Shown one piece after another: positions 7,556 to 46,759 of a stretch of DNA of 64,000 nucleotides. Source of the DNA: Ruminococcus sp. (GTDB lineage: Bacteria; Bacillota; Clostridia; Oscillospirales; Ruminococcaceae); NCBI RefSeq assembly GCF_017464355.1, contig NZ_JAFUAG010000045.1, forward strand, positions 176,319 through 240,318. Reading direction: 5' to 3'. The notes under the pieces were generated by a model. It was not told where the DNA came from and did not search any database. It saw only the letters and a list, made by a program, of their open reading frames with translations. A program made the translations under genes and the position numbers. How positions within the stretch are numbered: the stretch's first letter is position 1; each line of letters opens with the position of its first letter.

Positions 7556-8111
7556 TAATACTGCCCTCCTTTACTGTTTTCTTCAGCTTTTGCAAAGCCT
7601 GTCTGTATTTCCATGCAACAGTTCCAAGAGGAATCCCCATAGCCTCGCTGATCTCCTTGAAGGTCATATCGAAGCCGACGCGGAGGTTCACTATCTCTTT
7701 CTCCGCTTCGTTTAGTGTGTCAAGGGCTTGCCTGAAAGCCATGCCGCCGACCACCTGTACATCGGTGGGTTCCTCGGTGTCTGCCTGTTCTTCTGTGTAT
7801 ACTCCGTCATCGTCGATCGTGTATTCCTCGTGTTTTCTTTTTCTCAGGAAATCGATCGCCATGTTTCGGGCCATCACCGTTATGTAGCGCTTGTGTCCCG
7901 TCCCGGAACGGTACTGCGCCGCTGTCTCCCACAGTTTCAGGAACATATCACTTGTCAGGTCCTCAGCGTCCTGAGGGCTTTTGACCACCGCAAGCATCTG
8001 TTGGTATACCAGCTTGCCGTAGCAGGTGTAAATGTCCCTGAGACCGTTTTTGTCCTTCCCGAGTATCTTTTGGATACACAGGTCAAACTCCTTGTCGGTC
8101 AATACTATCAT
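7548..8111 (-). CDS. ECF-type RNA polymerase sigma factor
   Basis: About 187 residues with sigma region 2 (DAEDLTSDMFLKLWE, about residues 46-60, and a YITVMARNMAIDFLRK segment) and region 4 with a helix-turn-helix (TFKEISEAMGIPLGTVAWKY). It directs RNA polymerase to a small stress or envelope regulon. The start is uncertain: ATG 8111 or GTG 8114 sit very close to an AAGGG site, and TTG at about 8102 is better spaced. Gene order is sigma, anti-sigma, lipoprotein, vWA lipoprotein. The upstream promoter at 8234-8262 looks sigma-A dependent, so it need not be purely autoregulated. Confidence 0.9.
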   Translation of the reverse strand: MIVLTDKEFDLCIQKILGKDKNGLRDIYTCYGKLVYQQMLAVVKSPQDAEDLTSDMFLKLWETAAQYRSGTGHKRYITVMARNMAIDFLRKRKHEEYTIDDDGVYTEEQADTEEPTDVQVVGGMAFRQALDTLNEAEKEIVNLRVGFDMTFKEISEAMGIPLGTVAWKYRQALQKLKKTVKEGSING

Positions 8112-35871: not shown

Positions 35872-36720
35872 ATGGATAAAATACTTCTTGATATGCACAC
35901 CCACAGCAGCCATTCCCCCGATGCGGAGGACAGCGCTGCTGCTATGTGCGAAAGAGCCGCAGAGCTCGGCCTGACAGCCTATGCGCTGACAGATCACTGC
36001 GATGTCAATTTCTGGGAGAAAGCCCCCACCCCCGAAACTATCGATGCGATGATGTACGGCTCAGGCAGCTATGCTCTTGCAAGCATAGCCGAGCAGACAC
36101 AGCTTCGTGATAAATACAGCGGGCGCCTTGACCTCATTATCGGCATCGAGCTTGGCCAGCCCCTGCAGAATATGGAAAAAGCCGAGCTTATAACCGATGA
36201 CCCCCGCCTTGACTTCATCATCGGTTCACACCACATGAATGCAGGGGTAGATGATTTCTACTACCTTGACTACAGCAAAATGTCTCCCGCAGAACTTGAC
36301 CGCCTCCTTGAGAATTGCTTTACCCAGACCCTTGAGATGTGCCGCTGGGGCAGGTTCGATGTGCTGGGTCATCTTACTTATCCCCTCAGGTATATCTGCG
36401 GAGAATACGGCATTCCCGTGGATACAGACAGATATCACGATATCATCTGTGAAATTTTTAGTACACTTATCTCAAAGGGCAAGGGTATCGAGATAAACAC
36501 TTCAGGCCTCCGCCAGAAGTACGGCATGACCTTCCCCACCTTTGAACTTGTAAAGCTGTACCGTCAGCTTGGGGGCGAGATACTCACCATCGGTTCAGAT
36601 GCCCACCGTGTTCCCGACCTTGGCAAGGGCATAGCTGAGGGTATCGAGCTGGCAAAAGCCGCAGGCTTCGACAAGGTCGCATATTTCAAGAAGCATGAGC
36701 CCCATTTCCTAAAGCTGTGA
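35872..36720 (+). CDS. PHP-domain histidinol-phosphatase-like protein
   Basis: A 282-residue PHP phosphoesterase of the HisK/HisJ type, which hydrolyses histidinol phosphate in histidine biosynthesis. Metal ligands are visible in DMHTHSSHS (residues 7-15), LTDHCD (about 41-46), GIELGQ, IGSHH and the C-terminal GSDAH. AAAGGTGAT precedes the ATG. No other his genes are near, so a different sugar- or nucleotide-phosphate substrate is possible. Its 3' end overlaps the sigG 3' part by 12 bp in convergent orientation. Confidence 0.85.
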   Translation: MDKILLDMHTHSSHSPDAEDSAAAMCERAAELGLTAYALTDHCDVNFWEKAPTPETIDAMMYGSGSYALASIAEQTQLRDKYSGRLDLIIGIELGQPLQNMEKAELITDDPRLDFIIGSHHMNAGVDDFYYLDYSKMSPAELDRLLENCFTQTLEMCRWGRFDVLGHLTYPLRYICGEYGIPVDTDRYHDIICEIFSTLISKGKGIEINTSGLRQKYGMTFPTFELVKLYRQLGGEILTIGSDAHRVPDLGKGIAEGIELAKAAGFDKVAYFKKHEPHFLKL

Positions 36721-37197
36721 CTTTATCTTGTCCAGCGCACTTTTCTCCAGACGGGAAACCTGTGCCTGGGAAATGCCTATCTCCTTTGCCACCTCCATCT
36801 GGGTGCGTCCCTTGTAAAAACGTAGGAAAAGTATGTTCTTTTCCCTGCTTTTCAGACTTTTCAGCGCTTCTTTAAGGGTCAGTTCCTCCAGCCAGCTTTT
36901 GTCATCATTGCTGTCGCAGATCTGATCCACGATGTAAAGCGCATCACCGCCCTCGGTGTAAACAGGCTCATAAATTGAAACAGGGTCGCTCACCGACTCC
37001 AGCGCCGTTACGATATCTGCCCGCTTTTCTCCCGTCAGCTCTGCGATCTCGTCAATGCTGGGTTCACGCTGGTTTTCGGCGATGAAAGCTTCCTTTGCCT
37101 GCATGGCTTTGTATGCCAGATCCCGCATGGAACGGCTGACTCTCATCGGGCGGAAATCTCTCATATAGCGTTTTATTTCTCCCAATATCATTGGCAC
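36709..37197 (-). pseudogene. sigG: sigG 3' part (SigG residues ~95-256), separated from its 5' part
   Basis: C-terminal 160 residues of the forespore sigma factor SigG: regions 2.3/2.4 (MILGEIKRYMRDFRPMRVSRSMR), region 3 and region 4 with the helix-turn-helix (TQMEVAKEIGISQAQVSRLEK). No ribosome binding site precedes GTG 37197 or ATG 37191, and the sequence upstream becomes unrelated at the GGCAC core (37193-37197). The 5' part lies 9.1 kb away at 46239-46586 on the same strand. There are no internal stops or frameshifts, so this is an interrupted rather than decayed gene. Joining at the core restores ...TYAVP|MILGE... in frame. Confidence 0.93.
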
Positions 37198-37216
37198 AGC
37201 ATTGGGCGGTCGAAAA
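37181..37216. other. Left attachment site (hybrid of sigG and element half-sites)
   Basis: The sigG half-site (37181-37192) joins core GGCAC (37193-37197) and then the element arm containing ACAGC, TTGGGC and GTCGAAAA (37196-37216). Likely crossover is at the GG of 37193-37194. Confidence 0.85.
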
Positions 37217-37249
37217 CGGACAGCAGATACCTTATCTGCTGTCCGTTTT
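37213..37249. terminator. Perfect 17 bp hairpin at the left end of the element
   Basis: AAAACGGACAGCAGATA, a 3-nt loop, then the exact complement ending in TTTT. It has A and T tracts on both sides so it can terminate in either direction. It would stop element transcripts from entering the sigG 3' part. Confidence 0.8.
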
Positions 37250-37306
37250 GTTATATATGTCTATTACATTGCTTTGGCAGATGATAAATTTGTTCAAACA
37301 GATAGC

Positions 37307-37335
37307 TTGACAAACTGTGTATATAGTGCTATAAT
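37307..37335 (+). promoter_or_regulatory. Consensus sigma-A promoter for the NAD-salvage operon
   Basis: TTGACA (37307-37312), 17 bp, TATAAT (37330-37335), a perfect match, about 56 bp before the first gene. Confidence 0.88.
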
Positions 37336-37390
37336 GATAACAACAAAGAGATAATAACTAAAGGTTACAAACAGAAAAGGACGGATAGTT

Positions 37391-37948
37391 ATGAATATAC
37401 TGATAGCCATTGACCTCCAGAAGGATTTTACCACAGGTGTCCTCGGCAATGCCGAATGTGATGCTGCTGCCGCAAAAGCCGCAGAACGCATAAAGGCATA
37501 CCGTACTGAAAACCCCGATACTCCCGTGGTGTTTACCCTTGACACCCATACCGAGAATTATATTGAGACCCAGGAAGGCAGAAATCTTCCTATAGTACAC
37601 TGTGTCCGCGGAACTGAGGGCTGGCAGCTCGATGAGCGCATAGCAGCCGTTAAGGCAGAGGGTGATATCACGGTGGAAAAGCCGTCTTTCGGTTCGGCGG
37701 ATCTTCCTGTAGTTATCTCAAAGCTTGTATGGCGTGATAAGATCGAGGAGATAGAAGAGATCGAGTTCATCGGTGTATGCACAGATATCTGTGTTATCAG
37801 CAACGCTATGATAGTCAAATCAGTTTTTCCCGAGGTACCCATTAAGATAAACGCCAAATGCTGCGCAGGTGTTACACCCGAGTCTCACGAAAATGCACTC
37901 AGCGCCATGGCGGCCTGCCAGATGAAGATCGAAAGGAATGAGGTATAA
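37391..37948 (+). CDS. Cysteine hydrolase, nicotinamidase/isochorismatase-like
   Basis: A 185-residue isochorismatase-fold hydrolase. The catalytic triad candidates are Asp in IDLQKDF (residue 8), a central Lys (in EKPSFGSA, near residue 97) and Cys in GVCTDICV (near residue 136), as in nicotinamidase. It would convert nicotinamide to nicotinate and ammonia, but isochorismatase-like proteins with other amide substrates look similar. The genomic link to the Prs-like and NAMPT-like genes supports a pyridine role. Its stop overlaps the next ATG (TAATG). Confidence 0.8.
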   Translation: MNILIAIDLQKDFTTGVLGNAECDAAAAKAAERIKAYRTENPDTPVVFTLDTHTENYIETQEGRNLPIVHCVRGTEGWQLDERIAAVKAEGDITVEKPSFGSADLPVVISKLVWRDKIEEIEEIEFIGVCTDICVISNAMIVKSVFPEVPIKINAKCCAGVTPESHENALSAMAACQMKIERNEV

Positions 37949-38763
37949 TGCTTAGCTACCGTTTTGACGGGGGAGAGTTCATCTCCCCGAACATCGATAA
38001 CTACCCCGACGGCACCATGAAGATAGACCTCGCCCCCGCCGATACCTGCCAAAAGGCAGATATCCGCTGGCTTTACGAGAACGAGCTTGAACAGATGCAG
38101 CTTTTCTTCATCATGGGCAGCCTGAAAGACCGCTTCCCGAAAGCTGAGTTCACCCTGTTCCTGCCCTATCTTCCCAATGCCCGCATGGACAGAGTACACG
38201 CTGATACTGAGGTCTTCACTTTAAAGTATTTTGCCCGTTTCATAAATTCCATGGGTTTTGATAAGGTTTATGTGCTGGACGTTCACTCTTCCGTAGGCGC
38301 TGCCCTTATCGACCGCTGCGTTAATATCTCCCCTGAAAAATATATCCGTCAGGCCATGGAAGCTGCAGGCTTCTCCTTTGAGAACGACTACCTGTTCTTC
38401 CCTGATGAGGGTTCAATGAAGCGCTATTCCTCCATGTTTAATGGAAACCATGTCGGCTTCGGCATAAAGAAGCGTGACTGGTCCACAGGCAGGATAATGG
38501 GTCTTGAAGTTGAGGGCGACGACCCCACAGGAAAAAATGTATTCATCATTGACGATATATGTGCCTATGGCGGAACTGTCTTTTACTCCGCAAATAAGCT
38601 CAAAGAGCTTGGCTGTGCTGATATAAACGTATATTTCAGCCACTGCGAGAACTCCATAGCAAAGGGCAGGCTGTTTGGATGCGGAATGATAAAGAATATC
38701 TACACCACAAATTCCATATGCACCCTGCCCGAAAACGATATCCTCAGGTTAATCGAACTATGA
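37948..38763 (+). CDS. Ribose-phosphate pyrophosphokinase-like protein (Prs-like)
   Basis: A 271-residue protein of the PRPP-synthetase fold, about 40 residues shorter than housekeeping Prs and clearly divergent. PYLPNARMDR (near residue 72) corresponds to the ATP-binding PYxxxARQDR, and the PRPP/ribose phosphate loop is VFIIDDICAYGGTVF (near residues 195-209). Between cysteine hydrolase and NAMPT-like genes it probably makes the pyrophosphorylated ribose donor for the latter. It could be a true PRPP synthetase or an ADP-ribose pyrophosphate synthetase as in the phage NARP1 pathway; sequence alone does not decide. Confidence 0.8.
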   Translation: MLSYRFDGGEFISPNIDNYPDGTMKIDLAPADTCQKADIRWLYENELEQMQLFFIMGSLKDRFPKAEFTLFLPYLPNARMDRVHADTEVFTLKYFARFINSMGFDKVYVLDVHSSVGAALIDRCVNISPEKYIRQAMEAAGFSFENDYLFFPDEGSMKRYSSMFNGNHVGFGIKKRDWSTGRIMGLEVEGDDPTGKNVFIIDDICAYGGTVFYSANKLKELGCADINVYFSHCENSIAKGRLFGCGMIKNIYTTNSICTLPENDILRLIEL

Positions 38764-38784
38764 TGTAAAGAAAGGAAGATCATT

Positions 38785-40305
38785 ATGAAAGGCATAAATG
38801 CCGTACTTATGTGCGATTTCTATAAAATAGTCCACAGGGATATGATAAATCAGGCCATGACAAAGTCCATGTCCTACTATACCCCCAGAATGAGCCGAGT
38901 AAGGCGCTGGGATAAGGTGGTAATGTTCGGCCTGCAGATGTTTTGCAAGACCTGGCTCATTGACTATTTCAACGAGAATTTCTTTGATGTTCCCGAGGAA
39001 GAGGTAGTGGCCGACTATCAGCGTGTGCTGGATAATTCTTTCGGAAAGGGCATATATAATACAAGCTCTATCACCGAGCTTCACAGGCTGGGCTACCTGC
39101 CTATAGAGATCATCGCCCTGCCCGAGGGCACCCTTGTACCTATCCATGTTCCCATGTTCGGCATAACTAATACCCACCCCGATTTTGCATGGCTGCCCCA
39201 GGCGCTGGAAAGCCTTATCTCTGCCGAGATGTGGTACCCCCAGATAACAGCTACCGTGGGCAAGACCTACCGCGATATCGTCAACAAGTATTATGATATC
39301 ACCTGCGATGATGATATCCCCCGAGCAAAGGCGCTGGGCTCTTTTGATTTCCGCGGCGACCAGGGGCTTGATGCCGCACTGAAAGCGGCTGCGGGCTGGT
39401 GTATGTCTTTCCTGAACACTGCCACCGTTCCCGCCATACCCTACCTTGAAAAAATGTTCGGCGCAGACTGCACAAAAGAACCTGTTGCCTACGGCGCTGT
39501 CAGCACAGAGCATTTCGTTATGTGCTCCAACTTTGCTGTTGACGGTGATGAAGAAAGCTTCCTTCGCAGAATGCTCACAGAGCTTTATCCCAACACCAGC
39601 TTTTCTGCTGTTCTTGATTCCTACGATTACTGGAACGTCATCGATAATATCCTGCCTAAGCTCCACGATGAGATAATGGCACACAACGGCTGTATGCTCA
39701 TGCGAGGTGACTCGGGTGACTGCGTTGAGGTCGTGACCAAGACCGTTTTCAAGCTTTGGGAGCAGTTCGGCGGAACTGTCAACAGCAAGGGCTATAAGGT
39801 CCTTGACCCCCACGTCAAGGCCATCTACGGCGACAGCATAACCGTTCAGCGCTGCGAGCAGATCTACGAGATACTCATGAACAACGGCTTTGCCTGCTCG
39901 AATGTTACGCTGGGTGTAGGTTCGTTCTCCATGCACTGCATTGAGGAGACCGAGGAGCTGACCCTCACCGCTGATGACGGTCAGAAGTTCGTCGGCAGAC
40001 CCACTGTGCTCAAGCCCTTCACCCGTGATACCTTCTCCAGCTGCATAAAGGCCTGCTATGCCGAGATAGACGGCAAGGAATACCCCATTTTCAAAGACCC
40101 AAAGGACGGCGGCTTCAAGAAGAGCCAGAAAGGCCTCTGCTATGTTTACCGCAATGAGGACGGTGAGCTTGCCTACAAGGACGGCTATGTGGGCAGCAAT
40201 ATTCCCGAGGGCAACCTCCTTGAAACTGTTTTCAGGGACGGTAAGCTTGTGAAAGAATACACCCTCAGTGACATAAGAAACAGGCTGCACGACAGCGCAT
40301 TCTGA
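38785..40305 (+). CDS. nadV: Nicotinamide phosphoribosyltransferase-like enzyme (NAMPT/NadV)
   Basis: A 506-residue enzyme of the NAMPT type, which joins nicotinamide with PRPP to give NMN. By eye, VSTEHF matches the active-site His region, LDSYDYWN the phosphate/ribose site, and RGDSGD the PRPP-binding RPDSGN. The Asp that contacts the amide in human NAMPT (in GTDTVAG) appears as Ala here (NTATVPA), so substrate preference may differ. ATG 38785 has AAAGGAAG upstream and follows the Prs-like gene by 21 bp. A terminator closes the operon. Confidence 0.85.
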   Translation: MKGINAVLMCDFYKIVHRDMINQAMTKSMSYYTPRMSRVRRWDKVVMFGLQMFCKTWLIDYFNENFFDVPEEEVVADYQRVLDNSFGKGIYNTSSITELHRLGYLPIEIIALPEGTLVPIHVPMFGITNTHPDFAWLPQALESLISAEMWYPQITATVGKTYRDIVNKYYDITCDDDIPRAKALGSFDFRGDQGLDAALKAAAGWCMSFLNTATVPAIPYLEKMFGADCTKEPVAYGAVSTEHFVMCSNFAVDGDEESFLRRMLTELYPNTSFSAVLDSYDYWNVIDNILPKLHDEIMAHNGCMLMRGDSGDCVEVVTKTVFKLWEQFGGTVNSKGYKVLDPHVKAIYGDSITVQRCEQIYEILMNNGFACSNVTLGVGSFSMHCIEETEELTLTADDGQKFVGRPTVLKPFTRDTFSSCIKACYAEIDGKEYPIFKDPKDGGFKKSQKGLCYVYRNEDGELAYKDGYVGSNIPEGNLLETVFRDGKLVKEYTLSDIRNRLHDSAF

Positions 40306-40316
40306 TAATATCCCCC

Positions 40317-40355
40317 ACAGTGTCTGCCAATGAAAGTGCAGGCACTGTATTTTTG
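40317..40355 (+). terminator. Terminator after the NAD-salvage operon
   Basis: ACAGTGTCTGC...GCAGGCACTGT stem with one T/G mismatch, followed by ATTTTTG. Confidence 0.85.
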
Positions 40356-40384
40356 TTGACAGCCTTGTCACTATGTGGTATAAT
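40356..40384 (+). promoter_or_regulatory. Consensus sigma-A promoter for the element's unknown gene
   Basis: TTGACA (40356-40361), 17 bp, TATAAT (40379-40384). Confidence 0.85.
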
Positions 40385-40420
40385 AATTACATCATTTCCT
40401 GATAATACGGAGGTATCTCA

Positions 40421-40879
40421 ATGAAGATAAACAGCAATGAAGAACTGCTAGAGGTCATAGGCGAGGGGTTTCTCTGGAATATAGTCAGCGAATATATCGC
40501 CCATGATATCGAACATATCAAGGAAGCCCTCAGACAGCTGGGCTATATCGATCAGGCAGATGTTGACAAGCTTACCTTTGCGGAAGACCGTGACAGTGAT
40601 GAATTCAACATCATCTCATTCAGTGAGAACGGCCATACCCTTACCGCCGAATATGAAATGCCCACAGGTATACTTACCTGCAATGAAGACAAAAGTGTGT
40701 GCTTCCACATGACCGCCTGCTGTACGGGAACGATCGAGGTACCCGACTATTCTTCCTACGACTGGGGCGCCCTTGATTTTGAAAACATGAACCGACCTCA
40801 GATACTTTCCTATAGTCATCTTGCAAAGCTGAAAAGCCTCAGCTATGAATACGTTGAAGCCGACGACCTCAATGCATAA
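40421..40879 (+). CDS. Element-borne hypothetical protein
   Basis: A 152-residue acidic, soluble protein with no signal peptide and no family I recognise. An N-terminal helical part (to about residue 45) is followed by a predicted beta-rich part (HTLTAEYEMPTGILTC, VCFHMTACCTGTIEVP) and a C-terminal helix. It has a private consensus promoter, a CGGAGG ribosome binding site and its own terminator, so it is probably well expressed. The location inside the sigG element makes it a candidate for an element-specific function, but none can be assigned. Confidence 0.65.
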   Translation: MKINSNEELLEVIGEGFLWNIVSEYIAHDIEHIKEALRQLGYIDQADVDKLTFAEDRDSDEFNIISFSENGHTLTAEYEMPTGILTCNEDKSVCFHMTACCTGTIEVPDYSSYDWGALDFENMNRPQILSYSHLAKLKSLSYEYVEADDLNA

Positions 40880-40886
40880 AAATAAT

Positions 40887-40929
40887 AACTGCCCCGAAAC
40901 GGAAGTTTTTTCAATCGGGGCAGTTTTTC
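40887..40929. terminator. Bidirectional terminator between the unknown gene and the MFS gene
   Basis: AACTGCCCCGA...TCGGGGCAGTT stem with an A run on the left and a T run on the right, shared by convergent genes. Confidence 0.88.
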
Positions 40930-42101
40930 TATTTTATCTCCGCAGACTTTCTCAACGCAAATTTCAGTGTGAACAGCAGCCCGCAGAAAAGCACGGCGCA
41001 TACAGGCAGCACTGTGATAGCCTTGCCATATCCCGCCTTTTCCACCAGCCCGCCGAAAAATGCGTTAAAGCCGATATCAAAGAAAGTTGCTATACTCAGT
41101 ATGGTCCCCGTGGCAGTACCCGCCTCGGCAGGGTCGAAGAATTTTCCTATGAGCATGACCAGCATAGGGTATATTATAGAAAACGCCACACCCGAAATAC
41201 CGATGAGCAGCATACCTCTTTTACCCATGGAGATGCCTGCAGTGTAAAGCACCGCACCTGCCGCCGACCAGATCAGCAGGCTCCTGAAAATGCCTATCCT
41301 GTCGATAAGGGGCGCAAATATCAGCCTGCCAACGGTTATCCCGCCAAAGAACAATGACAGGTAAAATGCAGACTTCTGCACAGTGAACCCCAGATGTTCG
41401 CTGCCATAGGAGGTCAGCCAGTTCATCAGCCCATGCTCCGCTATGAAATAGCAGCCGCAGATAAGTATCAGTATGATACTTGCAGGGCTTTTCAGGACTT
41501 TTCTCAGCCCGCTGCCATTCTTCTCTTTCTTCTCCGGGTCGGGAAGCTTCAGCCTCATCAGCAGCACAAAGCAAATTACCGCCAGCCCCAGGAGTATACC
41601 GTTGGCAGCGTGCCAGTATTTCAGGTCATGAGCAAAGCGCCCGCCCACATTCTGTGAAAGGGTTATGCCTATGCCCTGCAGAAAGTTGAATATGCTCACA
41701 AGCATGGCAGGCGAGGCGAACAGCAGTGGAGTTATGATATTCACCGAGGTGGATATCATCGTTGAACCTCCCATGGAAAATATCATTGCCGCCAGCAGAA
41801 GGCAATAGTTCTCGGTGAATACATAAGAAGCCAGCGCCGCTGCCCATAGTATCAGCACACCGCCTATAAATCTTTTCCTGGGCAGCCTGTCCGAAAGATA
41901 GCCGCCCACCGAGAGAAACAGCAGATTTCCCACATAGCTTATCATTATTATCCGTCCCGCCTGGGGTTCCGTCAGCGAGAACGTATTGCGGAACTGCGGC
42001 AGAAAAACTCCCCTCAGCGCATCTGAGGCCGCAGTTATGGTCATTATCAGCCCGCAGAATACCATGGCAGTCAGGTGGGCTTTCTTCTTCATACTATCCA
42101 T
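40929..42101 (-). CDS. Major facilitator superfamily transporter
   Basis: A 390-residue protein with twelve predicted membrane helices. The MFS motif between helices 2 and 3 is GGYLSDRLPRKRF (near residues 67-79). It starts 1 bp after the beta-mannosidase gene ends, so both lie in one minus-strand operon; a manno-oligosaccharide or mannoside substrate is therefore likely but inferred. It ends at a bidirectional terminator. Confidence 0.88.
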   Translation of the reverse strand: MDSMKKKAHLTAMVFCGLIMTITAASDALRGVFLPQFRNTFSLTEPQAGRIIMISYVGNLLFLSVGGYLSDRLPRKRFIGGVLILWAAALASYVFTENYCLLLAAMIFSMGGSTMISTSVNIITPLLFASPAMLVSIFNFLQGIGITLSQNVGGRFAHDLKYWHAANGILLGLAVICFVLLMRLKLPDPEKKEKNGSGLRKVLKSPASIILILICGCYFIAEHGLMNWLTSYGSEHLGFTVQKSAFYLSLFFGGITVGRLIFAPLIDRIGIFRSLLIWSAAGAVLYTAGISMGKRGMLLIGISGVAFSIIYPMLVMLIGKFFDPAEAGTATGTILSIATFFDIGFNAFFGGLVEKAGYGKAITVLPVCAVLFCGLLFTLKFALRKSAEIK

Positions 42102-42102
42102 G

Positions 42103-44538
42103 TCAGTAGTTCTGTATCCTGAGCCCCGCCTTAAGCTTTTCTGCGGTCATGCCCTCGGGCAGAGCGTTCTTCTCCACCATGACACAGACTTCCTCCTCCC
42201 CGTGTATATCGAACCAGTTATCCGAGAATGCGCAGTCATTTTCTTCAAGAGAAAGGCAAACGCTTTTGGCAAAGTTTTCAGCTTTCAGTCTGATCGTGAA
42301 ACTGTCCGTATTATCGTACACTTCCGCTGTTATCCCACCGGGCAGGAACTCAAAGGCCTTTGGCCGAACGAACAGCGTAGTTCCTCCGCTTATGACCTCG
42401 CCGTTTTTTATAAGCTTGTATTCCAGATACTTTGTGCGCTTGTCCTCACGGCCTGCAAGCTCAGCCGAGTAGTCCGTCATGCACATCTTTTTGGCGGACA
42501 TAGCCTTGACCACCCATCTGCATTCACTCATGCAGATGACCCTGCCGTCATTTCCCCTGAGTGTTTCTATAATGGTCAGTTCTTCATCTTCAAGGGTGTC
42601 ATTGCTGACATAGAGTGCCGGCTTCATGGGTTCGCTGTCATCACAGCTTATCAGTATGGGCGCATAGAATTTTCTTGCGTAATAATGCAAAGCCTTCCAC
42701 CGCCCGAAGTAGTCTATGCTCGACCAGGATATAACAGGATTTGAGTCGTTCACCTGCCAGTAAGCCGAGCCCATGCAGCGCCCTCTTGCCCTCCTCATAT
42801 GCTCCACGTTCGAGCGTATGCAATCCGCCTGAACTATCTGGGAACAGTATATGAGCCTTTGAAGATCGTAAGGGTAATTTACCATCTGCGCCAGGTAGTA
42901 CATGACCTTTTCGTTGCCCTGGGTGCATTTCTGGTGAGCCTGCATAACATTGCCGCACAGGTCAAAGTCGCCCTTGTCCTCATTGGCAAAATAGCGGCAG
43001 GTCTTTATATCAGGCAGACTTTCAAAGCCGTACTCCGAGCAGAAGCGGTAATGGTACTGCCTGAAAGCTTCTATGGGCTTGAAGTTGTGCCATACGTCCC
43101 AGTAATGCATATCTCCTGCGTGGTTCGATGAGGGGTCTTCAAACTTTCCTCCCGAGGAAGGCGATGAAGGCCAGTAGAAAGTTTCCGGGTCATATTCTTT
43201 CAGCATGGTCGGGATAATGTCCTCAAACAAACGCAGATAATCAGCCTTGCACTCCTTGTCATCGGGCCAGCCCCAGCCCACCCACGCAGACTCTATCTCA
43301 TTGTTGCCGCACCACATACCCAGCGATGCATGGTTCCTGAGCCTTATTATGTTGTCACGGAATTCTTCCCTTACAGTGGCTTCAAATCCTTCCGTCAGCA
43401 GATATGCCGAGCAGGCGAACATAAAGTCCTGCCATACGATGAAGCCGTTTTCATCGCACCAGTCGTAAAAATACTCATCGGGATAATACCCGCCGCCCCA
43501 TACTCTTATAAAATTGTAGTTGGCAGCTTTGCAGTCCTCCAGAAGTTTAACTGTGCGTTCTTTTGTACAGCGCGTAACTATCTGGTCTTCGGGGATATAG
43601 TTTGCGCCCATGGCAAATATCTTCACACCGTTGTTTATAAAGCAGAACTCCTCGCCCCACTCGTCCTTGTCACGGGATATGGTCAGTGTCCGCAGGCCTA
43701 TGCGCCTTGTGTGGGTATCTACGGTTTTCCCCCCGCAGATAAGCTCCACCTTGCAATCATACAATGGCTGTTCTCCAAGACCTGTTACCCACCACAACTT
43801 TGGTCCTTCAATGACTATCTCAGCCCTGCCCTCATTCAGCAGAGCAGTCTGTACCCTGCCTTCGGGGGAGGTAACTGTCAGCCTGACCTCTGCCTTTTCT
43901 TCGCTGAAAATCTCTATATCCGCTTTGCAGCAGACGGTCACTTTCCCGCCTTCATGCTTCTGGGTGTAATATACGTTGTTTATCCTGCCGCCGTCGTAAT
44001 AACATAGGCTGACGCTTCTCCAAATGCCCATGTCAGGCAACTTGGGACCCCAGTCCCAGCCGAACATACAGTGGGCTTTTCTCAGATGAGGGTACCCTGC
44101 CATGCAATGCTCAACTCCTGTCAGTGGACGTTCAGTCTGCTTTTTCGTTATGTACTCATTAGGCGAAAGCAGCTTTACGCTGAGGATATTGTCTTCATCT
44201 TTCAGTATGCCCTCAACATCGTATTCATAAATGCGGTGCATATTGTCCGTCATCCCGAGGAGCCTGCCGTTCAGCCGCACCTCCGAAAGGGTGTCTATCC
44301 CATCGAACCTCAGCACGTTCTTTTCATGGCTGTCCTTTTCGGGAGCGTCAAAGTGCTTTTCAAAGGTGTAGTCCATGTCGCATATCCCCGTGGAGATATA
44401 CTCGTTTTCACGGTAATAGGGGTCGGGTATCATGTTGTTTTCTATGAGTGTTTTGTATACCGAGCATGGCACATCGGCAATGTAGGTCTTGCCATTATAT
44501 TCCATTACCCAGCTTTTATCAAGGGATATTTTTTTCAT
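42103..44538 (-). CDS. Beta-mannosidase, glycoside hydrolase family 2
   Basis: An 811-residue GH2 exo-enzyme that removes beta-1,4-linked mannose from the non-reducing end of manno-oligosaccharides. The order is an N-terminal jelly roll, an immunoglobulin-like domain and a TIM barrel. The acid/base Glu lies in WCGNNEIESAW, the nucleophile Glu in FCSEYGFES, and FGWDWGPKLPDMGIW is typical of beta-mannosidases. ATG 44538 with AAAGGAAG 8 bp upstream is the start; the open frame continues to 44715 only through non-coding sequence and the repeat. No signal peptide, so cytoplasmic. Works downstream of the GH113-like mannanase. Confidence 0.9.
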   Translation of the reverse strand: MKKISLDKSWVMEYNGKTYIADVPCSVYKTLIENNMIPDPYYRENEYISTGICDMDYTFEKHFDAPEKDSHEKNVLRFDGIDTLSEVRLNGRLLGMTDNMHRIYEYDVEGILKDEDNILSVKLLSPNEYITKKQTERPLTGVEHCMAGYPHLRKAHCMFGWDWGPKLPDMGIWRSVSLCYYDGGRINNVYYTQKHEGGKVTVCCKADIEIFSEEKAEVRLTVTSPEGRVQTALLNEGRAEIVIEGPKLWWVTGLGEQPLYDCKVELICGGKTVDTHTRRIGLRTLTISRDKDEWGEEFCFINNGVKIFAMGANYIPEDQIVTRCTKERTVKLLEDCKAANYNFIRVWGGGYYPDEYFYDWCDENGFIVWQDFMFACSAYLLTEGFEATVREEFRDNIIRLRNHASLGMWCGNNEIESAWVGWGWPDDKECKADYLRLFEDIIPTMLKEYDPETFYWPSSPSSGGKFEDPSSNHAGDMHYWDVWHNFKPIEAFRQYHYRFCSEYGFESLPDIKTCRYFANEDKGDFDLCGNVMQAHQKCTQGNEKVMYYLAQMVNYPYDLQRLIYCSQIVQADCIRSNVEHMRRARGRCMGSAYWQVNDSNPVISWSSIDYFGRWKALHYYARKFYAPILISCDDSEPMKPALYVSNDTLEDEELTIIETLRGNDGRVICMSECRWVVKAMSAKKMCMTDYSAELAGREDKRTKYLEYKLIKNGEVISGGTTLFVRPKAFEFLPGGITAEVYDNTDSFTIRLKAENFAKSVCLSLEENDCAFSDNWFDIHGEEEVCVMVEKNALPEGMTAEKLKAGLRIQNY

Positions 44539-44635
44539 ACAGATACTTCCTTTCGGCGGATACTTTAAGTCATTATAACACCCAAAATCGAAGCCGTCAA
44601 TAGTTGTATACGTTATCAAAAAATTAAATTTCTGA

Positions 44636-44734
44636 ATCCCAATTTGGCTGTGTATTGTTTCCCCCGCCGAAGGCGGGGGAAACAATACGAAAAAAACATT
44701 CTGTATCATCAGCAATACACTTCAAAATTGGGAG
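44636..44734. repeat. MITE-like element, full copy with target duplication
   Basis: 99 bp with terminal inverted repeats (TCCCAATTT / AAATTGGGA) and an internal TTTCCCCCGCCGAAGGCGGGGGAAA hairpin-forming block (44659-44682). It is flanked by an 8 bp direct repeat ATTTCTGA (44628-44635 and 44735-44742), which looks like a target-site duplication. It lies between the GH2 start and the recombinase unit. Copies at 50078-50177 and, shortened, at 17456-17513. Confidence 0.85.
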
Positions 44735-44786
44735 ATTTCTGATTATTGTTTTACACTGCTGCCCATAATATCCCAGAGGTGATACT

Positions 44787-44921
44787 ATGCTAAAAATAAA
44801 CAAGACCATGACACCCGACGGCACCCTTTTTACTGATTACCGTGATAAGGGCAACAAAAGGCTTACACAGCTTTTATCAGATATAACAGCCCGTATCCGT
44901 GAAAGGGAAGAACTGTCATGA
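44787..44921 (+). CDS. 44-residue protein translationally coupled to the recombinase
   Basis: A short basic frame with an AGAGGTGAT ribosome binding site and ATG 44787. Residues 1-20 include KINKTMTPDGTLFTDYRD, then a charged helix (SDITARIREREELS). Its stop overlaps the recombinase start (TCATGA), so the two are translated together. I recognise no family. Candidates are a recombination accessory or directionality factor, which is inference from coupling alone. Confidence 0.55.
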   Translation: MLKINKTMTPDGTLFTDYRDKGNKRLTQLLSDITARIREREELS

Positions 44922-46276
44922 AGCGCAAGGCTGCCCTCTATATCCGTGTTTCTACCGATGCCCAGTTTGAAGAGGGCTATTCCGTCGATGCCCAGAAAGA
45001 AAAGCTCGCCCAGTTCTGCAAGCTGAAAGATATAGAGGACTATGAATTCTACATCGACGGCGGCTGGTCGGGCAGCAACATACAGCGCCCCGAGATAAAG
45101 CGCCTTATCGACGATATCCTTGCAGACAGGATAAATATGGTAGTGGTCTATAAGCTTGACAGACTATCCCGTTCCCAGAAAGATACCGTCTATCTTCTGG
45201 AAGATGTTTTTATCCCACATAACTGCGCTTTCATCTCCCTGAATGAGAACTTTGATACCTCCACTCCCTATGGCAAGGCCATGATCGGCATACTATCCGT
45301 CTTTGCCCAGCTTGAAAGGGAAAATATCCGTGAACGTACCCGCATGGGTATGTACGAGAGAGTGCGCTCGGGTCTGTGGATGGGTGGGGGACGGGTACCC
45401 TTCGGCTATGACTACGACAAGGAGAAAAACACCCTTGTCCCAAATGAAAAAGCCGAACAGGTCAGGCAGATATATGCTTTGTACCTACAGGGCTACTCCA
45501 CCACACAGCTTGCCGCCATGTTCGATGTTTCGGGGGATCAGCATATCTCAGCTATCCTTGACAGAGAAACATACCTCGGAAGGATAAAGTTCCGCGGCGA
45601 GACCATTGAGGCCGCCCATGAGCCCATAATAGACGAAGATACCTGGCTGCGTGTTCAGCAGGAAAGGGCAAGGCGTTCCCGCGGGGGCAGCAGGTCTTCC
45701 GCCTACCTGCTGACAGGTCTGCTGGTCTGCGGTAAGTGCGGTGCAAAAATGCGCTACCAGAAGTGGGGCAGCGGCTTGAAGATCTACTGCTACTCACAGC
45801 AGAAAAGCAAGCCCTCCCTCATAAAAGACCCCGAATGTGACAACGTGAGATACGATGCCTTTGAAGTGGAAAAAGCCGTTACAGAAGACCTGTTCAGCAA
45901 GACTGCCTCCGTTACGGCAGAAAGCAGGTCATCGGCTGATGTAGTGAGCGCCATGGAGCTGCTGAAAAACAAGTACCGCCATACAGCAGATAAACTGAAA
46001 AGGCTGTATGATCTCTACGCAGCAGACGGCAATGAGCTGCTGCTGGAAACTATTGAGGAAAACAAAAAGCAGCTGTCAGAAATAAATGCAGCCATAGAAA
46101 ACGAAGAAAAGTCAAAGCAGGCCGCAGGGGAGCTCAGGCGAAAAAGAGAGGTAATGACGAACCTGTGCAGCCTGTGGGACAGCATGACCCTCAGCGAAAA
46201 GAAAAAAGCCCTCCGAACCTGTATCGAAAGGGTCATACTCACCGATGAAGATATAGATATAGTATATACCCTCTAG
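44918..46276 (+). CDS. Large serine recombinase of the sigG element
   Basis: A 452-residue large serine recombinase. The resolvase domain has the catalytic Ser in YIRVSTDAQ (residue 12) plus the conserved KLDRLSRS and ERENIRERT motifs. Then come the recombinase domain (RVPFGYDYD), a zinc-ribbon (CGKCGAKMRY, with CYSQ...C following) and a C-terminal coiled coil (about 345-420). This is the layout of SpoIVCA, which excises skin from sigK in Bacillus. Its stop codon is 1 bp from the right att arm. It is expected to catalyse excision and integration between the two sigG att sites. It overlaps the extended sigG 5' frame by 38 bp, convergently. Confidence 0.94.
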   Translation: MKRKAALYIRVSTDAQFEEGYSVDAQKEKLAQFCKLKDIEDYEFYIDGGWSGSNIQRPEIKRLIDDILADRINMVVVYKLDRLSRSQKDTVYLLEDVFIPHNCAFISLNENFDTSTPYGKAMIGILSVFAQLERENIRERTRMGMYERVRSGLWMGGGRVPFGYDYDKEKNTLVPNEKAEQVRQIYALYLQGYSTTQLAAMFDVSGDQHISAILDRETYLGRIKFRGETIEAAHEPIIDEDTWLRVQQERARRSRGGSRSSAYLLTGLLVCGKCGAKMRYQKWGSGLKIYCYSQQKSKPSLIKDPECDNVRYDAFEVEKAVTEDLFSKTASVTAESRSSADVVSAMELLKNKYRHTADKLKRLYDLYAADGNELLLETIEENKKQLSEINAAIENEEKSKQAAGELRRKREVMTNLCSLWDSMTLSEKKKALRTCIERVILTDEDIDIVYTL

Positions 46277-46586
46277 CTTTTCGACTGCCCAACGCTGTCG
46301 GCACTGCATAGGTAGAAAACCTGACGTTGAGCCCCACATCAAAATTGTCAATGGCCTTTATAAGACCAACTACTCCGACCTGAAAAAGGTCATCGGGGCT
46401 TTCCTTGCCCTGGGAGTACCTCTGCAGAACGCTCAGCACCAGCCGCAGGTTCCCGTTTATCAGTTCTTCCCTGGCTTTTTTATCCCCACCCCTTGTCTTT
46501 TTCAGAAGCTCCTGCTTCTCTTCCTCTGAGAGAACCTTCAGCGAGCAGGTGTTCACGCCGCTTATCTCGACTTTGTTGTACTGCAT
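46239..46586 (-). pseudogene. sigG: sigG 5' part (SigG residues 1-96 plus 19 foreign residues)
   Basis: ATG 46586 with AAAGGAG 8 bp upstream starts the canonical SigG N-terminus (KVEISGVNTCSLKVLS), then region 1.2 (AREELINGNLRLV) and region 2.1/2.2 (DLFQVGVVGLIKAIDNFD). SigG identity stops after FSTYAVP (residue 96) exactly at the GGCAC core; 19 unrelated residues follow to a stop at 46239. The missing remainder is at 36709-37197. Fusing both gives about 256 residues, against 260 for Bacillus SigG. Alone it lacks promoter-recognition regions 2.4 and 4 and should be inactive. Confidence 0.93.
46278..46310. other. Right attachment site (hybrid of element and sigG half-sites)
   Basis: The element arm (46278-46298: TTTTCGAC, GCCCAA, GCTGT blocks), C, then core GGCAC (46300-46304) and sigG sequence. 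Likely crossover is at GG 46300-46301. Confidence 0.85.
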
Positions 46587-46759
46587 TATATTTCTCCTTT
46601 TATCAGAAAACGGATACGGTATAGGTATATATTTCCCCTGAAAGCTTCCGTTATTCAAGATCCTCGTTCACAGATAATCTGTATAATATTATATAAAACT
46701 TCATATTCGTGAAAAATAATCACGTTTTTGGACAACCGGTAAATATTCGGTCGAAACTA
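46587..46759. promoter_or_regulatory. sigG upstream region with inverted repeat
   Basis: Contains the sigG ribosome binding site and an inverted repeat CGTGA-7-TCACG (46708-46724). No clear sigma-A promoter points into sigG; forespore SigF/SigG-type sites are too loose for me to call. Confidence 0.35.

Follow-up and report, generated by a model that had tools for sequence, protein, structure and literature searches.

The forespore sigma factor gene sigG is split by a serine recombinase element in Ruminococcus and other clostridial lineages

The split sigG locus and its element

The window analysed here, a stretch of 64,000 nucleotides from a Ruminococcus sp. genome (G000; contig NZ_JAFUAG010000045.1 of assembly GCF_017464355.1), carries the forespore sigma factor gene sigG in two pieces, cut at codon 96 by a 9,107-bp element that encodes a large serine recombinase. 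Both pieces lie on the minus strand: the 5' half (46302..46586) encodes SigG residues 1-95 and the 3' half (36709..37194) runs from residue 96 to the end of the protein with its stop codon, the break falling within the Sigma70 region 2 domain. The length of the element is set by two copies of a 5-bp repeat, GGCAC, at 37193-37197 (right copy) and 46300-46304 (left copy), and the dinucleotide common to both element ends is the CC of the Pro96 codon (37193-37194 and 46300-46301). These coordinates agree with a first, sequence-only reading of the window, which had described sigG as split by a 9.1-kb element and had proposed that joining at GGCAC restores the frame; indeed, when the flanks were joined in silico with shifts of 0 to 5 bases, all six joins gave the identical uninterrupted 256-aa SigG. 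Both halves match the NCBIfam SigG model best (3e-39 for the 5' half and 2e-69 for the 3' half), with 135 bits against 81 for the SigF model in the N half and 234 against 188 in the C half.

Two ways in which the split could prove illusory had been raised, a complete second sigG with the present parts decaying in relatives and an error of assembly. No second SigG was found in the whole source genome (91% complete, 49 contigs), whose other sigma matches include one SigF and further sigma-70 factors. An assembly error is unlikely and was rejected, because six other genomes of the Ruminococcus albus clade, among them the isolates R. albus 8, KH2T6 and AR67, break identically; all seven assemblies thus agree, with the halves on different contigs in two of them (AR67 and RUI259). 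Elsewhere in the window, a sigma-70-like open reading frame (ORF) at 7572-7823 (minus strand, 211-aa open frame) matches the SigG model only C-terminally (E 2e-7).

The recombinase gene (44918..46276, plus strand) stands at the element end beside the 5' half; the earlier reading had also seen the intervening DNA end in a large serine recombinase gene. Its 452-aa product displays the Pfam Resolvase and Recombinase domains with a zinc ribbon, matches a PHROG integrase family at 2e-123 and also matches the TP901-1 and A118 integrase chains. On the element side of each junction lies an attachment (att) arm: TTTTCGAC...TGTG beside the 3' half (37195..37219) and, beside the 5' half (46275..46299), its inverted copy GACAGC...GTCGAAAA. 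Put together, the element ends rebuild the site TTTTCGAC...CC...GTCGAAAA, whose inverted-repeat arms match at 19/25 positions; we call it attP-like because ends that are inverted copies around CC have the form expected of a phage attachment site (attP). Crossover most probably takes place at the CC within the codon for the conserved Pro96. Upstream of the 5' half, a sigma-F/sigma-G-like promoter was judged by eye at 46628..46656 (minus strand), with GAATA at 46652-46656 and GGGGAAATATA at 46628-46638; the G(A/T)ATA and GGG blocks are present in 8/9 aligned upstream regions, and promoters quoted in PMC3416734 served as the comparison set.

Between its ends the element carries mainly metabolic genes. 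Three on the plus strand may serve nicotinamide adenine dinucleotide (NAD) salvage: an isochorismatase-family, nicotinamidase-like hydrolase (37391..37948; PF00857, 4e-22), a phosphoribosyl pyrophosphate synthase-like protein (37948..38763; TIGR01251 at 4e-25, below cut-off) and a nicotinamide/nicotinate phosphoribosyltransferase (38785..40305; PF04095 and PF18127, with NF006629 over cut-off). They are followed by a 152-aa orphan ORF (40421..40879, plus strand) with no Pfam family and no relatives in the other R. albus-clade elements, and on the minus strand by a major facilitator superfamily transporter (40929..42101; PF07690, 4e-32) and a glycoside hydrolase family 2 (GH2), beta-mannosidase-like hydrolase (42103..44538; Pfam). 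The NAD-salvage genes are present in all seven R. albus-clade elements and the GH2 gene in three of them, contig ends breaking two of the remaining four. No phage structural or lysis gene was found by Pfam among the seven element proteins scanned, so in this respect the element does not qualify as a temperate prophage. A perfect 17-nt inverted repeat, terminator-like, lies beside the element end at 37213..37249. At the other end a 44-aa ORF (44787..44921, plus strand) overlaps the recombinase start. Comparable short ORFs, often of an MxIxRYINGK-like type, stand ahead of the recombinase at 47/88 loci, a count that includes a few duplicates and some doubtful matches; they also occur at loci without a nearby sigG half and are hence not sigG-specific. 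An accessory factor is a possible role for them.

Distribution and history of the break

In order to see how far the arrangement extends, relatives of the recombinase were collected from genome contigs and the best 80 of 114 loci were kept. A sigG half stands at 60 of the 80 (both halves at 5, the 5' half at 13 and the 3' half at 42), and in 52 of these 60 the recombinase lies within 600 bp of it; the 20 loci without a half stay in the denominator, including one (L047) that belongs to a split genome. The junction letters show SigG homology stopping or starting near the codon 96 CC, between Val95 and Pro96. Since queries cut between residues 95 and 96 were used for the first breakpoint count, it was made again with whole SigG: 18 matches to 5' halves then end at residues 96-113 (11 at 97), and 47 matches to 3' halves start at residues 67-95 (27 at 95). 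With this uncut query no SigG spanning the junction was found in the 80 loci. Junction-spanning matches at L072, L110 and L113 (84-160 bits) were too weak for SigG and were taken for other sigma factors. By record title the hosts include Ruminococcus, Agathobaculum, Butyricicoccus, Defluviitaleaceae, Lachnospiraceae and other Oscillospiraceae; metagenome-assembled genomes (MAGs) are numerous among them.

Whole genomes gave a corresponding picture. Within the genus, where the sequence-only reading had proposed a search for intact copies in related Ruminococcus, sigG is intact in 20 of 29 genomes, split in eight and not seen in one (76% complete); one of the eight, G019, is split by a different element. 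Among 54 genomes of the family of A. desmolans (Butyricicoccaceae), requested at a completeness of at least 90%, 15 are split, 38 intact and one is without a SigG match, and again one split genome, G390, carries a different element. In the window's own family, 274 of 297 genomes have a match at 1e-36, and among the matches listed the best ones are mostly of full-length SigG strength. A whole-genome search of 39 further genomes, reached via 40 of the 80 recombinase loci, found no match of that strength in 37; their next full-length matches (up to 256 bits) are taken for SigF. The two exceptions are G350, a MAG that has both forms, and G330, in which sigF is broken. G350 (locus L103) holds an intact sigG together with split halves; either the MAG is contaminated or it draws on a population in which joined and split forms occur side by side. 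In G330 (L066, L186) sigF is split at the homologous codon while sigG is intact, and the recombinase is nearly identical to the one inside sigG of [Ruminococcus] faecis. As near-identical recombinases sit in sigF and sigG, the probable target is the shared forespore sigma motif YAVPM, cut between YAV and PM.

The inserts differ widely in size: 2.5 kb (L059), 6.1-9.1 kb in the five R. albus-clade genomes that have both halves on one contig, 14.7 kb (G332), 27.6 kb (G248), 32.5 kb (G079) and about 90 kb ([R.] faecis). In Butyricicoccaceae the separation can reach the scale of the chromosome. In 12 of 13 loci with the 5' half (G390 being the exception) the half is followed by one common ORF, amidohydrolase-like by eye and often backed by a nucleoside-phosphorylase-like ORF, likewise named by eye, and the 3' half is preceded by the recombinase. 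A sigma-A-like TATACT before that recombinase was dropped as a promoter since it lies in the conserved small ORF. In G361, assembled as a single contig, the halves are 757 kb apart in opposite orientation, and att recombination would therefore invert the 757-kb interval. A single scaffold of A. massiliense carries the halves in reverse order at a distance of 112 kb, and the sequence that separates them is free of gap letters.

The history of the element was followed in the R. albus clade. In a tree of flanking genes, R. albus 7, which has an intact sigG and no such recombinase, joins the split KH2T6, AR67 and RUI259 at 99.3/99; outside this group stand G025, R. albus 8 with RUG10798, and the window genome. 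The groupings of the recombinase tree match those of the flank tree wherever resolved. The recombinase itself (E<=1e-60) is found in all seven split genomes of the R. albus clade, whereas the 22 other genus genomes, G019 included, lack a match. The simplest reading of these trees is one gain followed by vertical inheritance and one precise loss, probable, in R. albus 7. The NAD-salvage genes of R. albus 7 lie about 1.05 Mb from sigG, and in G023 the NAD-salvage operon stands directly behind an intact sigG; from these placements (L177 and L176), the cargo has moved into or out of the element. As regards sporulation genes, SASP genes were found in 17 and SpoIVA genes in all of the 19 genomes tested, G000 included, with no SASP match in G023 and G025.

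Selection, a viral relative and the MTRK protein

We compared nonsynonymous with synonymous substitution rates (dN/dS) in both halves. For the seven R. albus-clade genomes, compared in 21 pairs with dS mostly saturated, the ratio comes to 0.043 for the N half and 0.045 for the C half. Restricted to pairs with dS of 0.3-1.5, it becomes 0.059 (6 pairs, N half) and 0.053 (5 pairs, C half), against 0.109 (14 pairs) and 0.111 (18 pairs) for intact relatives in the same range; matching the dS ranges shrank the gap between split and intact genes and left its direction unchanged. In Butyricicoccaceae (11 genomes, 55 pairs) the 5' half gives 0.079 and the 3' half 0.038, with no stop codons. By these ratios, both sigG halves are under strong purifying selection in the two clades. 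The att DNA is conserved at silent sites as well: in the R. albus clade 6 of 10 degenerate att codons are invariant, compared with 27 of 173 elsewhere (p=0.003), and 500 control subsets of seven intact relatives each all stay below this level; in Butyricicoccaceae the figures are 5 of 10 compared with 13 of 162 (p=0.001). With just ten such codons at att in each test, these figures call for caution. Selection on the protein would not by itself lead one to expect such conservation, whereas selection for recognition by the recombinase would. Together, dN/dS and att conservation indicate, if indirectly, that the host lineages of both clades keep the split sigG functional.

A relative was also found in viral DNA. 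The viral contig L189 (52.7 kb, first 10.3 kb examined) carries an integrase 58% identical, followed by an attP-like palindrome centred on CC, a gene for a 229-aa protein that we call MTRK and, further on, an endolysin gene. The contig L188 of IMG/VR has a sigG 5' half adjoining a recombinase. The best match among phage records in GenBank (63%; L190, MT839977, 'Bacteriophage sp.') was rejected as a free circle: the record is linear and, as it contains a sigG 3' half and the recombinase, it was taken for bacterial DNA. No plasmid relative of the recombinase was found at 1e-80, and no additional viral contig bearing MTRK was recovered.

Fifteen genomes carry an MTRK relative at the far end of the element from the recombinase. 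In 9/15 the gene comes after the sigG 5' half and shares its strand, in 6/15 it starts beside the 3' half, and in three (L146, L151 and L160) its frame is continuous with the 5' half; it also lies near the 5' half of the broken sigF in G330. At 19 further opposite ends it was not found in ten, one of which comprises merely 640 bp. The MTRK protein of L059 has no match in GenBank phages at 0.01, and MTRK gave no PHROG family at 0.001 and no NCBIfam family at 1e-10; against Pfam, one of the two proteins tried matches PF18780 at 1.7e-4, below cut-off. MTRK is the best candidate for the directionality factor in many relatives. Because it directly follows the 5' half in nine of 15 genomes, the sigG promoter could drive it, and placed behind a sigma-F-type sigG promoter it would give forespore-specific excision.

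Explanations and known systems

We think it likely (roughly 77%) that the intervening element is related to phages and was integrated by the large serine recombinase it encodes, and that sigG is maintained as two halves which site-specific recombination rejoins. The support for a maintained sigG restored in this way is strong though indirect, coming from selection on the halves, conservation of the att DNA, inheritance, the loss in R. albus 7 and the viral relative. Recombination between the two att sites would restore sigG when SigG is needed; going by what is known of the family, the recombinase alone would keep the gene split and a directionality factor would switch it to joining. SigG is a forespore factor, so that excision confined to the mother cell is not expected for its gene, and since the future spore is where it acts, any rearrangement that works should be open to reversal: after germination the circle would re-integrate or be lost from the lineage. 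The metabolic cargo for NAD salvage would favour retention of the element. A wider proposal, that several clostridial lineages undergo a germ-line programmed rearrangement in which the forespore sigma factor, its gene being stored in pieces, can be produced only once a reversible recombination has occurred in the future spore cell, is tentative and draws more doubt than confidence from us.

Several observations weigh against restoration by recombination. The split is the minority state in both samples (8/29 in the genus and 15/54 in the A. desmolans family). MTRK was found in 4/38 genomes searched whole, and in none of G000, the R. albus clade and the Butyricicoccaceae tried. One exact R. albus-clade pattern for the excised attP form gave 0 matches, whether in the window, in the viral contigs or in the 29 genomes of the genus; this absence from assemblies fits integration as the resting state and proves nothing. 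Support for the deeper nodes is low in the flank tree (100/79 and 99/64) as well as in the recombinase tree (7.8/48), which leaves some probability to two or three gains, and R. albus 7 and G023 are placed weakly in the sigG tree. Finally, R. albus 7 is listed as Spo0A+ but not spore-forming, with spoIIR, spoIIM and further genes missing (PMC3533761).

Phase variation, which we judge unlikely while taking it seriously, would explain much of the same evidence by random excision and re-integration during growth, a subpopulation with intact sigG finishing sporulation as a form of bet hedging. The att and selection results apply equally to it, and the yin element of C. botulinum coexists as integrated and excised subpopulations (PMC10747680); however, the attP form was not found in the 29 genus assemblies, and the nine genomes with MTRK directly behind the 5' half point to developmental control there.

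Ordinary recurrent lysogeny, with sigG as a popular bacterial attachment site (attB) where insertions are recent, often lost and unregulated, appears improbable as a general account. It would accommodate the viral contig with its integrase and attP-like site, the scattered distribution with many intact relatives, the range of inserts from 2.5 to about 90 kb and a sigG label that changes 9 to 11 times on the tree of the recombinase loci, in which duplicate loci of single genomes had been merged. What it leaves aside is that the element persists by descent within the R. albus clade and throughout Agathobaculum and Butyricicoccus, the selection on halves and att DNA, and the lack of any phage structural gene among the seven element proteins scanned. 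Lysogeny of this kind may fit some other lineages.

A relic, in which sporulation was lost, the insertion killed sigG and the halves persist by inertia, has still less to recommend it. The listing of R. albus 7 as a non-spore-former without several sporulation genes (PMC3533761) and the missing excised form would suit it, but both halves are open with dN/dS of about 0.04-0.08 in two clades, the att silent sites are conserved, and the window's own genome keeps SASP and SpoIVA genes. Finally, a two-piece sigma factor assembled from separately made halves is barely credible: an ATG does precede the 3' half in many Agathobaculum loci, but the codon is not conserved (ATC in L098 and L068, ATT in L060), the break lies within the Sigma70 region 2 domain and the silent att conservation would be left unexplained.

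The preferred reading, a sigG restored by recombination, has its closest parallel in skin, the element within sigK of C. difficile and B. subtilis, which shares a large serine recombinase at its end, a split sporulation sigma gene and precise in-frame restoration. It differs in target and cargo, and also in that sigK is a mother-cell gene whose element is excised in a terminal cell, whereas sigG acts in the forespore, whose DNA is inherited. The description of the element as skin-like thus holds for its recombinase and for the splitting of sigG, while the mother-cell logic of sigK cannot simply be transferred because forespore DNA is passed on. The fdxN element of heterocyst cyanobacteria is likewise excised in development by a serine recombinase, XisF, whose model the window recombinase matches below cut-off; heterocysts are terminal cells, unlike the cell in which a sigG element would act. 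To our knowledge, the known split sporulation genes (sigK, spsM, spoVFB, gerE, yabG and kamA) are mother-cell genes, so that loss of the element dies with the cell.

In C. difficile the recombinase is constitutive and the recombination directionality factor CD1234 gives direction and carries the developmental control, excision being confined to the terminal mother cell (PMC5025042). SP-beta has sprA and sprB at opposite margins of the prophage with attP between them in the circle (PMC8270828), a layout like the placement of recombinase and MTRK in relatives of the sigG element, MTRK being likened to SprB by position alone; the SP-beta target, spsM, is a late mother-cell gene and not a sigma factor. 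The elements gin (gerE, one B. cereus strain; PMC5595907) and yin (yabG, one C. botulinum isolate; PMC10747680) also place serine recombinases in sporulation genes, although these are mother-cell genes in single strains and sigG elements span several families. The interrupted genes given in PMC10747680 are sigK, spsM, spoVFB and gerE, plus yabG, to which PMC8270828 adds kamA. No intervening element in sigG/spoIIIG appeared among the matches listed in the literature searched, which covered no preprints and few subscription journals, and in the recombinase-discovery paper PMC10083194 sigma factor or sporulation terms matched in the reference list only. That the site is new, as the sequence-only reading had suggested from one locus, agrees with this literature; the single case has widened into a widespread class, splits on the scale of the chromosome among them.

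A split sigG brings a skin-type trick into the germ line and raises the question of its reversal in the next generation. If such a rearrangement takes place in Butyricicoccaceae, an inversion spanning much of the chromosome would turn sigG on, and after germination the gene would be turned off again, with no DNA lost. Among mapped phage attachment sites, sigG and, in one case, sigF would be new entries, and the recombinases described here come with a natural target that is conserved. The split may also be part of the reason that sporulation is rarely observed in gut Clostridia that carry sporulation genes.

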